Below, piece after piece: positions 34,236-38,530 of a stretch of DNA of 64,000 nt; position 1 is the stretch's first letter; every line of letters begins with the position of its first letter. Source of the DNA: Armatimonadia bacterium (GTDB lineage Bacteria; Armatimonadota; Zipacnadia; Zipacnadales; JABUFB01); assembly GCA_039679385.1 (NCBI GenBank), contig JBDKVB010000050.1, forward strand, positions 1 to 64,000, written 5' to 3'. The notes under the pieces were generated by a model. That model searched no databases, had not been told where the DNA came from, and saw only the letters and a program-made list of their open reading frames with translations. Both the position numbers and the translations under genes were made by a program.

Positions 34236-34347
34236 GGTCCCCGGCGTCGGGGAGGTCCAGGTCGATGAGGCTCACGCAGTCTCCTCCATCGTCGACCGGC
34301 TTGACGCGACCCCTCGACCCGGAGGTAACGAACCCAGGGAAGTGATT

Positions 34348-34371
34348 GCGACCGGCCCACGGGCCGGTCGC
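34348..34371 (+). terminator. terminator-like hairpin before the DUF366-queE genes
   Basis: GCGACCGGCCC (34348-34358) pairs perfectly with GGGCCGGTCGC (34361-34371) around an AC loop, followed by TGTGCTTTGG. About 50 bases upstream is an imperfect stem (34256-34299). This could terminate the previous gene or be the switch part of a leader. I see no recognisable preQ1 aptamer. Confidence 0.5.
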
Positions 34372-34419
34372 TGTGCTTTGGCTGAAGGAACTTCCTGTCG
34401 CCGTGGAGCAAGTCATACC

Positions 34420-34977
34420 ATGAAGTCCCACTTGTCCAGTCAGTCGATCGCCTACACCGGCCAGGAGTTGCGCTCCCACTGGGCCTTCGAGACCTTCGGG
34501 ATCCTCGGCGATGCGATCGTGAGTTTCGCCGGGCCCTGTGAGGTGGCGCTGCAGCACATGGTAGACCTAGCCGACGTGGCCGCCTCCGAGTCGATCCGGG
34601 CGCGGCTGATGCAGCACTTCCTGGTCGAGTTCTTTGACACCGACCTGGAAAGGGCGGTACTGCGTCAGCGGCTTCTGGTGGCTCTGGCCGGCGAAGTTCT
34701 GCAGACTCACTTCCAGGTGGCCGACCTGCAGCGCAAGGGCGATGATCTGTTCGTCCGGGAGCGAAAGCTGTCGGTGTCCATCGCCACAGCTTCAGCCGTG
34801 TCGACACTGATCCACCTGGGCATCAACATCGACCCCACCGGCGCCCCGGTGGCGGCAATCGGTCTGGCTGAGCTGGGCGTTGACCCGTCGCAGTTCGCCC
34901 AGGAGCTGATGGCGGCCTACCTCGCGGAGCTGGACAGCGCTCGAGTCGCCCGCTGCAAGGTGAGGCCGGTACCATGA
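34420..34977 (+). CDS. DUF366 family protein
   Basis: The 185-residue protein matches DUF366 (COG2029), known mainly from archaea and some bacteria: IAYTGQELRSHWAFETFGIL, GDAIVSFAGPCEVALQHMVD, LERAVLRQRLLVALAGEVLQ, and KLSVSIATASAVSTLIHLGI near the middle. The fold has conserved His, Arg and Asp but no catalytic scheme is established. It overlaps queE by four bases (ATGA) and is therefore translated with it, which ties it to 7-deazaguanine (queuosine) synthesis. The start is the first ATG after which conservation begins; GGAG is 11 bases upstream. Confidence 0.85.
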   Translation: MKSHLSSQSIAYTGQELRSHWAFETFGILGDAIVSFAGPCEVALQHMVDLADVAASESIRARLMQHFLVEFFDTDLERAVLRQRLLVALAGEVLQTHFQVADLQRKGDDLFVRERKLSVSIATASAVSTLIHLGINIDPTGAPVAAIGLAELGVDPSQFAQELMAAYLAELDSARVARCKVRPVP

Positions 34978-35744
34978 GTGCGGTCGCGCCGCTGGCCGAA
35001 GTCTTCACCTCCTTCCAGGGGGAGGGGCCACTGGTGGGAGTCAGGCAGTTGTTCGTGCGGGTACGAGGCTGCGACCTCACCTGCCGCTACTGCGACACAA
35101 GGGCCGCCAGGCAGCTTACGGGAGCCTGTCGTGTCGAGCAGCAGGCAGCCTCCGGGGACTGGCTGGAGCTACCTGGATCGTTGACGGCGGAAGAGGTGCT
35201 GTCGGCAGCAGGGCTCGACGTCACCGCGGAGTCGCCGACCCGTCCGCTTCCTCTCCACTCGATGGCGCTGACCGGTGGCGAGCCGCTCCTTTACCCTGAC
35301 TTCGCCCTCTCCCTCGCCCAGGCAGCAAGGCGACTGGGACTTGGCGCCTATCTGGAGACTGCAGGCCACCGTCCCGAGGAGCTGGAGGCGGTGATCGGCG
35401 CCTTCGACTACGTTTCGATGGACTTCAAGCTGGCCTCGACCTTGCAGGTTCCCGTGCCGGCCGAGCGGTTCGTCCACAGCTACGAGGTTGCCCAGAAGAC
35501 CCAGGTCTGGCTCAAGATGGTGGTGACGGGCGACACCTGCGCCTGCGAGGTCGCCGAGGCCTGTGCAGCGCTGGCCCAAGTCTCGCCACGGGGCCCGCTG
35601 ATCCTGCAACCGGTGACGCCCCTGGACTGCGGTCTCCCGGCGCCGAACCCGGCGAAGCTACATGAGTTGTACGAAGCCGCCGCCTCCTTCCTGGAGGACG
35701 TACGTGTGATTCCTCAGTGTCACCGATTGCTGGGGATCCTCTAG
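34974..35744 (+). CDS. queE: 7-carboxy-7-deazaguanine synthase
   Basis: A radical-SAM enzyme that converts carboxytetrahydropterin to 7-carboxy-7-deazaguanine on the way to preQ0 and queuosine. The 256-residue protein begins APLAEVFTSFQGEGPLVGVR and has the cluster motif GCDLTCRYCDT (Cys33, Cys37, Cys40: CX3CX2C), then ALTGGEPLLYP and YLETAGH and the YVSMDFKLAS strand. No queD, queC or queF is adjacent; they must be elsewhere. It overlaps DUF366 upstream and is 37 bases from the HgdB-like gene downstream. Confidence 0.95.
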   Translation: MSAVAPLAEVFTSFQGEGPLVGVRQLFVRVRGCDLTCRYCDTRAARQLTGACRVEQQAASGDWLELPGSLTAEEVLSAAGLDVTAESPTRPLPLHSMALTGGEPLLYPDFALSLAQAARRLGLGAYLETAGHRPEELEAVIGAFDYVSMDFKLASTLQVPVPAERFVHSYEVAQKTQVWLKMVVTGDTCACEVAEACAALAQVSPRGPLILQPVTPLDCGLPAPNPAKLHELYEAAASFLEDVRVIPQCHRLLGIL

Positions 35745-35781
35745 AGCCGCTGCGCCGGAGTCTCACAAGACCAGGTGGGCT

Positions 35782-36780
35782 ATGCAAGACCGTGTCGGGC
35801 TGACGACAACTGTCCCTGTGGAGGTGCTGCTGGCGGCCAAAGTGACGCCGGTCGACCTCAACAACCTGTTCATCAGCGACCTGCAGCGCGACGGTCTGGT
35901 GGCCCGTGCCGAGATGGACGGCTATCCACGGAATGTGTGCGGGTGGATCAAGGGGATCTACGCGACGGTGCTGGAGCGCGGCATCGACCGGGTGATTGCG
36001 GTCACCCAGGGCGACTGCAGCCAGACTCACGCGATGGTTGAGACCCTTCAGGCAGCGGGCGTCGAGGTCATCCCCTTCGCCTACCCCTATGACCGCGACC
36101 GCGAGTTGCTGCGCCACCAGATCCAGCGACTGGCCGAGCGTCTCGGCACAACCTGGGAGGCTGCGGAGCAGGCACGGGAGAGTCTCGTCCCCCTTCGTCG
36201 TCGACTGGCCGAGTTGGACCGGCTGACCTGGGAGGAGGAACTCGTCACCGGGGCTGAGAATCAGTACTACCTGGTGAGTGCGAGCGACTTTGCTTCAGAC
36301 GTGGAGGGCTTTGCAGTACAGGTGGAGAAGACTATTGCACAGGCGCAGACGCGGCAGCCCTCACGGGGCCGGGTTCGCCTGGGTGTGATTGGCGTCCCGA
36401 CCATCATCAGCGACCTGTACCCGGCGCTCGAGAAGCTCGGCGTGCAGGTAGTATTCAATGAGATCCCGCGGCAGTTCGCGATGCTTCCGTATCTGGGCTG
36501 CAAGCTGCTGGAGCAGTATGCACGGTATACCTATCCTTATGACGTCTTTGGGCGCATCACCGATGTACGTCAGGAGATCGAGCGGCGGCGCCTGGACGGG
36601 GTTGTCCATTACGTCCAGACTTTCTGCTTCCGCCAGATTCAGGACCTGCTGATCAAGCGCGAACTGCCGGTGCCGGTGCTGACGCTGGAGGGCGACAAGC
36701 CCGCAGTTTTGGACGCGCGGAATCGGCTGCGGATCGAGGCCTTCGTGGAGATGCTGGAGGCCCGACGGCGGAGAGGTTGA
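35782..36780 (+). CDS. 2-hydroxyacyl-CoA dehydratase (HgdB/BcrC)-like iron-sulfur protein
   Basis: The 332-residue protein resembles the D component of 2-hydroxyglutaryl-CoA dehydratase and the single-chain double-cubane cluster proteins. Cluster cysteines are visible in NVCGWIKGIY (Cys53), TQGDCSQTHAM (Cys79) and QTFCFRQIQD (Cys282), with another in YLGCKLLEQY (Cys240). Such proteins normally need an ATP-dependent activator (HgdC/FldI type), which is absent nearby. Its place 37 bases after queE suggests a reduction step tied to deazaguanine metabolism rather than CoA dehydration, but that is inference. Confidence 0.82.
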   Translation: MQDRVGLTTTVPVEVLLAAKVTPVDLNNLFISDLQRDGLVARAEMDGYPRNVCGWIKGIYATVLERGIDRVIAVTQGDCSQTHAMVETLQAAGVEVIPFAYPYDRDRELLRHQIQRLAERLGTTWEAAEQARESLVPLRRRLAELDRLTWEEELVTGAENQYYLVSASDFASDVEGFAVQVEKTIAQAQTRQPSRGRVRLGVIGVPTIISDLYPALEKLGVQVVFNEIPRQFAMLPYLGCKLLEQYARYTYPYDVFGRITDVRQEIERRRLDGVVHYVQTFCFRQIQDLLIKRELPVPVLTLEGDKPAVLDARNRLRIEAFVEMLEARRRRG

Positions 36781-36859: not shown

Positions 36860-36928
36860 TGTCCGACAGATCAGTCCGGTTGCACAGCAAGGTAAGCCTG
36901 AACCATCTCTCCAAGCGAGGTGACCGAC

Positions 36929-38386
36929 GTGAAACGAGCAGCGTGGGGAGCCAGAGCGGCAGTCGTGTGTCTGCTTCTGGCCCTGACTATCCCGGTACTG
37001 GCCCAGGAGGCGGGGAGCGACTTCGTCGGAACCGTAACACTGCGCAATGGTCAGTCCTTCTCCGGGGTCATCAAGCTTGCGGAGTTGGGCGTCGTGCTCG
37101 GCTCCGGTGTAGGCAACCTACTCCCCGGCTACGGCCAGATGAACCTTCAGGCCGGCGATCAGCAGGTCAGCATTCAGGCCCGCGACATCGCCAGCATTGA
37201 GGCAGACTGGGGCGACGGGGCCACCGGTTCCGATGCCCAGTGGAAGCTCAAGCAGGTCACCGTCCTGCGCAAGGATGGCACGAAGGTTACCGGTCAGCCG
37301 ACCTGGCCCTTCCACTCCAGCACCCTCAGCATGGTCCTCGATAGTGGCGACGCGAAGCGCATCTGGGCCATCCCTCTCGAGCCCAAGAGCTTCTCCCCCG
37401 ACAACCTGATCGCCACCATCACGATTGGCAAGGGAGCGGCACCAGTCGCACCGGCAGCACCTGCGGCACCCGCAGCTCCGGCGGAACCCGCGAAGCCAGC
37501 GGAACCTGCTGCTCCGGCGGCAACGACTCCGGCAGCGCCTGCGGCACCGGCAGCTCCAGTAGAACCCGCGAAGCCTGCAGAGCCCGCTGCGCCGGCGGCA
37601 ACGACCCCGGCAGCACCCGCTGCACCGGCAGCTCCGGCAGAACCCGCGAAGCCTGCGGAGCCCGCTGCTCCGGCCGCCACGACCCCGGCAGCATCCGCGG
37701 CACCGGCAGCTCCGGCAGCTCCGGCAGAGCCCGCCAAGCCTGCGGAACCCGCTGCTCCGGCGGCAACGACTCCGGCAGCACCTGCGGCACCGGCAGCTCC
37801 AGCGGAACCGGCCAAGCCTGCAGAACCCGCCATCCCGCCGGTATCGGTCAAGAGCTCGCTGTCCTTCTCCAGCCTCACCGACGAGGCAGAGCAAAACCGC
37901 ATCAAGGAGCTCGTGGCAGGCTATGCTCTGGACAAGGCTGTCGAGGTCACGAAGCAGGAGGACGGCGGCGTGGCGATGAGCTTCACTCTCGAGGACGTCT
38001 CGAAGTTCCCGGCGCTGGTCGAGGCCCTGCGGTACCGCGCCACCCCCGATGGCGGCAAGCAGTTGGTCTATGAGGAGCTCGGTCGCCAGGTCAGCGCAAG
38101 CTTCCGCACAGCGACCCTCAGCGGCGCAGTCAAGATGTCCATCACCTTCATGGTGACCCCGGGCGCCCAGTTGTTCGTCTCGCCGAAGGCGGGCGAAGAG
38201 CAGCAGGTAGCGCAGGACAAGATCGCCGCCGACGGCACGGTCGCCATGGATGTCCCGATCGTACGCGGCCAGGAATCCGTCTACGCGCGAACGGTGCTGG
38301 GCGAGGTCGAGAAGTGCATCAAGATCGACCTGTTCACCGGCGCAATCACAGAGGTTACCAAGGCCAACTACCAGGCCCAGAAGTAG
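36929..38386 (+). CDS. exported Ala/Pro-repeat protein
   Basis: A 485-residue protein with a signal peptide ([17 protein letters not shown]), a beta-rich N-terminal domain (about 30-160; [20 protein letters not shown]), then a long Ala/Pro/Glu linker in tandem repeats (about 165-305), and a C-terminal alpha-beta domain ([20 protein letters not shown]) with no family I know. The linker is a probable periplasm- or wall-spanning stalk. The best start is the GTG at 36929: GAGGTGA precedes it by 8 bases, and the GTG at 36920 is inside that site. A terminator follows at 38414. Confidence 0.7.
37484..37831 (+). repeat. tandem Ala/Pro/Glu coding repeat
   Basis: The segment EPAKPAEPA occurs five times, starting at 37484, 37562, 37640, 37727 and 37805. 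Spacings are 78, 78, 87 and 78 bases, so the unit is 26 residues (one 29). The bases differ at third positions, so it is a diverging in-frame duplication. Confidence 0.9.
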
Positions 38387-38413
38387 CCTCTCTGACGAAA
38401 GTTGAGACAAGAG

Positions 38414-38446
38414 GGCCGGGCAGCACGTGCGTCTGCCCGGCCTTCT
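38414..38446 (+). terminator. intrinsic terminator
   Basis: A perfect 10-bp stem (38414-38423 with 38433-38442) is followed by TTCTGTGT. It ends the repeat-protein gene before the membrane protein gene. Confidence 0.8.
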
Positions 38447-38530
38447 GTGTCTGGCGCATGCAGGCACTCCCCCGGCGTGCAGTCGCAGGACTGACGGCAC
38501 GTACTCCCAACGCACCGCGATCCCGATTCC

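Follow-up and report, generated by a model that had tools for sequence, protein, structure and literature searches.

The HgdB-like gene that follows queE in the window (the whole 64,000-nucleotide stretch of DNA analysed here) is predicted from its sequence to encode a non-orthologous counterpart of QueF, namely a single-cluster, activase-driven preQ0 reductase. We give this reading a probability of about 0.8. PreQ0 (7-cyano-7-deazaguanine) is the product of QueC, QueF converts it to preQ1, and preQ1 is the base that bacterial TGT places into tRNA. A preQ0 reductase function is suggested by a hole in the queuosine pathway, by operons and by mutual exclusion with QueF. The term "Q-type" is used here for the sequence clade to which the window's HgdB-like PF06050 protein belongs. 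The features concerned are the following:

34348 to 34371, no strand assigned: 11-bp inverted repeat in the leader, GCGACCGGCCC / GGGCCGGTCGC, terminator-like, without a strong T-run.
34420 to 34977, plus strand: DUF366 gene (PF04017), ATG at 34420, TGA ending at 34977, 185 aa.
34974 to 35744, plus strand: queE, 7-carboxy-7-deazaguanine synthase (divergent radical SAM enzyme, CX3CX2C), ATG at 34974, TAG ending at 35744.
35782 to 36780, plus strand: HgdB-like PF06050 (Q-type) gene, ATG at 35782, TGA ending at 36780, 332 aa, proposed preQ0 reductase.

The open reading frames and the sequence confirm the ATGA overlap between DUF366 and queE and the 37-base gap before the HgdB-like gene, both described in an earlier note on this DNA. 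That note would have counted a lack of conserved co-occurrence of PF06050 with DUF366-queE in related genomes against its idea of a link. Co-occurrence was found to be conserved: according to the gene coordinates of whole-genome matches, DUF366, queE and the PF06050 gene are intact, on one strand and in that order in 32 of the 41 genomes of the order, a recurrence that puts the arrangement far beyond chance. Whole-genome searches found DUF366 in 37 of the 41. Most of the genomes of the order without an intact trio carry pieces of it at contig ends, and the trio was undetected by whole-genome searches in G264 and G278. Downstream of the trio, the window encodes an Ala-Pro-Glu-Lys-rich repeat protein without a Pfam match (36920-38386). 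A long antisense open reading frame over this region (37118-38515) is probably a composition effect.

The queE product is divergent, as its scores against the NCBIfam QueE models (42-49 bits on four and 28 on a fifth) lie below every curated cut-off (200-300). Pfam gives a Radical_SAM match (PF04055, 38 bits), and the CX3CX2C motif reported in the earlier note is read in the translation as C33-x3-C37-x2-C40. The best PDB match is QueE 6nhl (E 3e-8), and the product is the sole full-length QueE relative in the window genome. In relatives, queE adjoins QueD/QueC. This linkage and the PDB QueE matches point to a QueE role, which is a prediction from sequence.

Other genes of the pathway were then located in the window genome. 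QueD-QueC is found on contig C157, QueH on C53, and QueA directly upstream of TGT on C96. The presence of QueA and TGT implies that preQ1 is needed. No match to QueF (PF14489) was found in the window genome. Among the 59 genomes first compared, QueF occurred only in family f35 (three genomes), all of which lack the Q-type gene. Of 14 named control genomes, 8 gave a positive QueF result, indicating that the search is sensitive. It was then extended to another 72 phylum genomes, as well as to the genomes behind eight loci that had come from outside searches. The Q-type clade is present in 57 of the 291 phylum genomes searched (E < 1e-50), including 15 genomes of families f43-f45. When 131 phylum genomes were tested for both, 57 had only the Q-type gene, 34 had only QueF, 40 had neither and none had both (Fisher p = 7e-11 by genome). 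Since these genomes are related and not independent, the genome-level p is too small, and the family-level value is safer: 12 of 36 families have the Q-type gene and 11 have QueF, with no overlap (p = 0.006). Weak PF14489 matches (21-28 bits) were rejected as QueF; the four that were read are FolE sequence, with CEHH and RRLQ.QER motifs.

Two observations count against replacement. The Q-type gene is unlinked to queE in three genomes (G192, G193 and G247), and both QueF and the Q-type gene are absent from seven genomes with a complete pathway (six of f32, and G246), which suggests that some organisms cope without both candidates. In G263, an eighth genome without either reductase, a contig end interrupts the trio. 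Nearly all of the f32 and f7 genomes (G195-G201 and G246; loci L100, L102 and L109-L111) have QueC, QueE, TGT and QueH, and QueD is present in all except G195. With both candidates absent, these genomes perhaps use a third preQ0 reductase or have preQ0 as an end product. In two f32 genomes, a PaaK-like adenylate-forming enzyme (assigned by inspection) is encoded between DUF366 and queE (L110:9409-10749, minus strand; L111:9257-10603, minus strand).

The link to queuosine genes is also seen with other gene orders. Families f43-f45 lack DUF366, and the order queD, queE, Q-type was present in all 14 loci examined. In G248, the Q-type gene comes immediately after queE. In relatives that carry QueF, it adjoins QueD, QueC or QueE in four of the loci inspected. 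Outside the phylum, plasmid pILYOP01 of the cultured Ilyobacter polytropus DSM 2926 (Fusobacteriota) has a Q-type-activase-queD-queE-folE-queC operon. Its Q-type protein (WP_013388700.1) is 42% identical to the window protein, and its companion is an acyl-CoA dehydratase activase. No queF was found inside this operon, and pILYOP01 is absent among the QueF matches listed (60 of 62 records). The Ilyobacter operon is the full preQ1 set, except that the Q-type gene and the activase stand in queF's place. In some f43/f44 loci, genes assigned by inspection to a homocysteine-methyltransferase-like protein and a MetF-like reductase lie between queD and queE (L196:6131-7902, minus strand; L197:1392-3150, plus strand). 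At another locus (L213:866-1756, minus strand; G238:C53), FolE apparently carries a phosphoribosyltransferase-like domain fused at its N-terminus, again by inspection.

The earlier note considered the activator of the HgdB-like protein to be missing. It is absent locally, but a stand-alone HgdC/BcrAD-type activase is encoded elsewhere in the window genome (G000:C48:63392-64144), scoring 249 bits, with 203 bits for PF01869. This activase would be the partner of the window's Q-type protein. A stand-alone activase is present in 37 of 42 Q-type genomes compared to 9 of 17 others (p = 0.006). Two MAGs that lie outside the phylum search, one of them Zixibacteria (L067/L068), show an ATGA overlap between the Q-type gene and an activase gene, and no QueF was found in the genome of either. 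In family f6, queH and the stand-alone activase are separated by about 4-10 kb (G276:C62, G281:C15, G282:C25, G283:C139, G285:C134, G289:C47 and G290:C53), a proximity that weakly suggests a further activase link to queuosine genes. A separate open frame of about 1400 aa with two activase domains (G000:C69:68608-70308) belongs to the same superfamily and is nearly universal in the phylum.

The Q-type protein of the window matches PF06050 (HGD-D) over its full length (123 bits against a cut-off of 28.4, profile positions 2-342). It is the only PF06050 protein encoded in the window genome, and the partner subunit is absent. Six cysteines mark the canonical PF06050 proteins of the phylum (positions 8, 27, 53, 79, 251 and 282, numbered as in the window's protein), and the Q-type clade is split from these proteins with full split support. 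C53, C79 and C282 are invariant in 36 homologues and in the Ilyobacter protein and align with cysteines of DCCP. At positions 8, 27 and 251, the Q-type proteins have invariant T8, N27 and Y251 instead of the distal cysteines. With three of the six ligand cysteines kept, one predicted [4Fe-4S] cluster is expected. The potential double-cubane protein of the earlier note is not supported by this cysteine count, which argues against double-cubane chemistry. A search for phage or viral copies found none.

Comparison with known systems places the Q-type protein among the activase-dependent enzymes. From the PDB, a profile of 36 Q-type proteins retrieved a 2-hydroxyacyl-CoA dehydratase subunit as well as DCCP, which scored 55 bits. 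The AlphaFold model has moderate confidence (pLDDT 63) and resembles HadB, DCCP and benzoyl-CoA reductase subunits. DCCP (PDB 7yyl/6eno) is the best PDB sequence relative by profile and has the fold and a partner activase in common with the Q-type protein. It differs in having cluster cysteines in the places of T8, N27 and Y251; the Q-type protein is also about 90 residues shorter and reaches 43 bits on NCBIfam NF040772, whose cut-off is 350 bits. HadBC/HgdAB and class I benzoyl-CoA reductase (BzdNO) likewise share the fold (3o3m_B, Foldseek E 2e-13), PF06050 and an activase of the HgdC/BcrAD type. These enzymes have two subunits and act on CoA esters, whereas the Q-type protein is encoded by one gene in queuosine operons. 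BzdO has a three-cysteine [4Fe-4S] site formed by Cys95/128/380 (PMC11971306). The Q-type cysteine set matches such a BzdO-like single site. QueF (PF14489) is an NADPH-dependent T-fold enzyme that works with NADPH and a catalytic cysteine thioimide (PMC5372742). It shares with the Q-type protein the proposed reaction and the place in the pathway, beside queD/queE/queC, and is never found in the same genome. However, the two are unrelated in sequence and fold, and the Q-type protein has an iron-sulfur cysteine set and accompanies an ATP-dependent activase.

For the Q-type protein, we infer the substrate, the electron route, the need for ATP and the chemistry as follows. The ATP-dependent HgdC/BcrAD-type activase would deliver low-potential electrons singly to the cluster. 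The electron acceptor would be one site-differentiated [4Fe-4S] cluster on C53, C79 and C282. This cluster and an acid/amide-rich pocket would then take the nitrile through the imine to the amine with four electrons. It is likely that the clade constitutes a second nitrile-to-amine reductase, unrelated to QueF, in which an HgdB-like protein with a single [4Fe-4S] cluster, recharged by an activase that depends on ATP, turns preQ0 into preQ1 in bacteria where QueF has been lost or was never present. The deazaguanine pocket may have formed where the distal cubane is missing, at T8, N27 and Y251. To our knowledge, QueF is the only enzyme that reduces a nitrile to a primary amine. We also know of no relative of the Q-type protein that reduces a base-borne nitrile; their substrates are CoA thioesters or small molecules. 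It is also not obvious that low-potential electrons driven by ATP would be needed to reduce preQ0, which counts against the proposal. The PF06050 family does carry out ATP-driven reductions, and DCCP reduces acetylene, azide and hydrazine (PMC11971306).

One possible alternative is that the HgdB-like protein serves another queuosine step, for example the reduction of epoxyqueuosine (a reductive deoxygenation), for which it would be an alternative enzyme, or helps to make some other 7-deazaguanine product. The PF06050 family performs reductive dehydrations, and the Q-type gene is tied to queE/queD and not to tgt/queA. However, 56 of the 59 genomes first compared carry QueH, whether or not they have the Q-type gene, so the epoxyqueuosine step is filled, and the role of epoxyqueuosine reductase was rejected on this ground. 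The Q-type gene also sits with the genes of preQ1 synthesis (queD, queE, folE and queC), the sole step lost alongside it is QueF, and QueA and TGT in the window genome indicate that preQ1 is required. We regard this alternative as unlikely. Another explanation, which seems quite improbable, is that the protein assists QueE, either as a redox helper or in its maturation, while preQ1 comes from salvage or an undetected reductase. The Q-type gene does directly follow queE in most genomes, and a low-potential iron-sulfur protein could supply QueE, a radical SAM enzyme that needs such electrons. Yet homologous QueE occurs without a Q-type protein in QueF-bearing relatives (L166 and L192), mutual exclusion with QueF is left unexplained, and de novo QueD/QueE/QueC would be pointless under preQ1 salvage. 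The elimination of other pathway steps puts the Q-type protein in QueF's place. The earlier note had placed the HgdB-like gene in deazaguanine metabolism. The queuosine link and a reductive role are well supported, but the further step or archaeosine-like base suggested there is not, as the evidence points to the preQ0-to-preQ1 step.

The neighborhood could also be due to chance or lineage inheritance, with a gene from acyl-CoA or amino-acid fermentation that happens to adjoin queE in a single clade. Most of the order descends from one ancestor, and the majority of characterised PF06050 proteins are CoA-ester dehydratases or reductases (PMC11971306 and general knowledge). This is highly improbable given that the link recurs in another phylum and in separate families with other neighbors (queD-queE-HGD without DUF366). 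The distinctness of the fully supported Q-type clade and the lack of a partner PF06050 subunit in the genome argue against it as well. The reading of the earlier note, in which DUF366 and the HgdB-like protein jointly form one new branch, agrees with their proximity in the order and with a distance of about 2 kb in two MAGs outside it. We consider it very unlikely, since DUF366 accompanies QueD-QueC-QueE in QueF-bearing genomes that lack the Q-type gene (G206-G208), and the Q-type gene occurs without DUF366 in the 15 genomes of f43-f45 and in G248. The queuosine link that the earlier note saw for the three genes stands, but DUF366 is not an obligate partner.

DUF366 was therefore considered separately from the proposed reductase. 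The protein scores 218 bits against PF04017, its sole Pfam match, with no recognisable ligase sequence family, and matches PDB 2ddz, a DUF366 protein, at E 3e-39. Its model (pLDDT 89) retrieved 2ddz in Foldseek, followed by LipL1/BirA/BPL/LplA at E ~1e-6. The model suggests a fold shared with biotin/lipoate ligases (Foldseek probability 1.0 to BirA/BPL/LplA), and an invariant lysine, K116 in an RKLS motif, is placed by inspection like the ligase lysine. DUF366 differs from these ligases in its low identity (~12-18%, TM-score ~0.5-0.6) and in its genomic company, which is queuosine genes. In other lineages, it adjoins QueD, QueC and QueE with or without QueF. Its association with QueC/QueE regardless of QueF suggests a separate accessory of queuosine operons and of the preQ0 branch that is independent of the reductase. 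A part in the reductase was rejected because of this separate distribution, and a replacement of QueD or QueC was rejected since both are present in the same genomes, often beside DUF366. As a guess from the fold, DUF366 would perhaps bind or activate a carboxylated intermediate. We found nothing on DUF366/PF04017 in the literature searched, which covered few subscription papers.

A terminator-like hairpin leader had also been described upstream of the trio. The hairpin is real, with arms at 34348-34358 and 34361-34371. Folding of the 190-nt leader is somewhat more stable than that of shuffled sequences (z = -2.7), but a strong T-run is absent and no known riboswitch is matched. No Rfam family reached the gathering threshold in the leader and none was credible at E ≤ 1. 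A riboswitch leader was rejected, as Rfam families matched neither the window nor the region upstream of the Ilyobacter operon. The hairpin may just end an upstream dnaX-like transcript.

In the literature searched, no paper was found that links PF06050 to queuosine or describes such a QueF replacement; this literature covered few subscription papers, and an earlier description elsewhere is possible. The proposal is directly testable: the operon is complete in the cultured I. polytropus, and a simple complementation assay is available in E. coli queF mutants. Annotations of the "2-hydroxyacyl-CoA dehydratase" type would be corrected for the Q-type clade. If the proposal is true, the PF06050 family would have a role in tRNA modification, and its chemistry would be akin to the side reactions of nitrogenase, acting on a defined physiological substrate. 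The pathway hole in many uncultured bacteria would then be closed by a member of the ATP-driven iron-sulfur dehydratase/benzoyl-CoA reductase superfamily.
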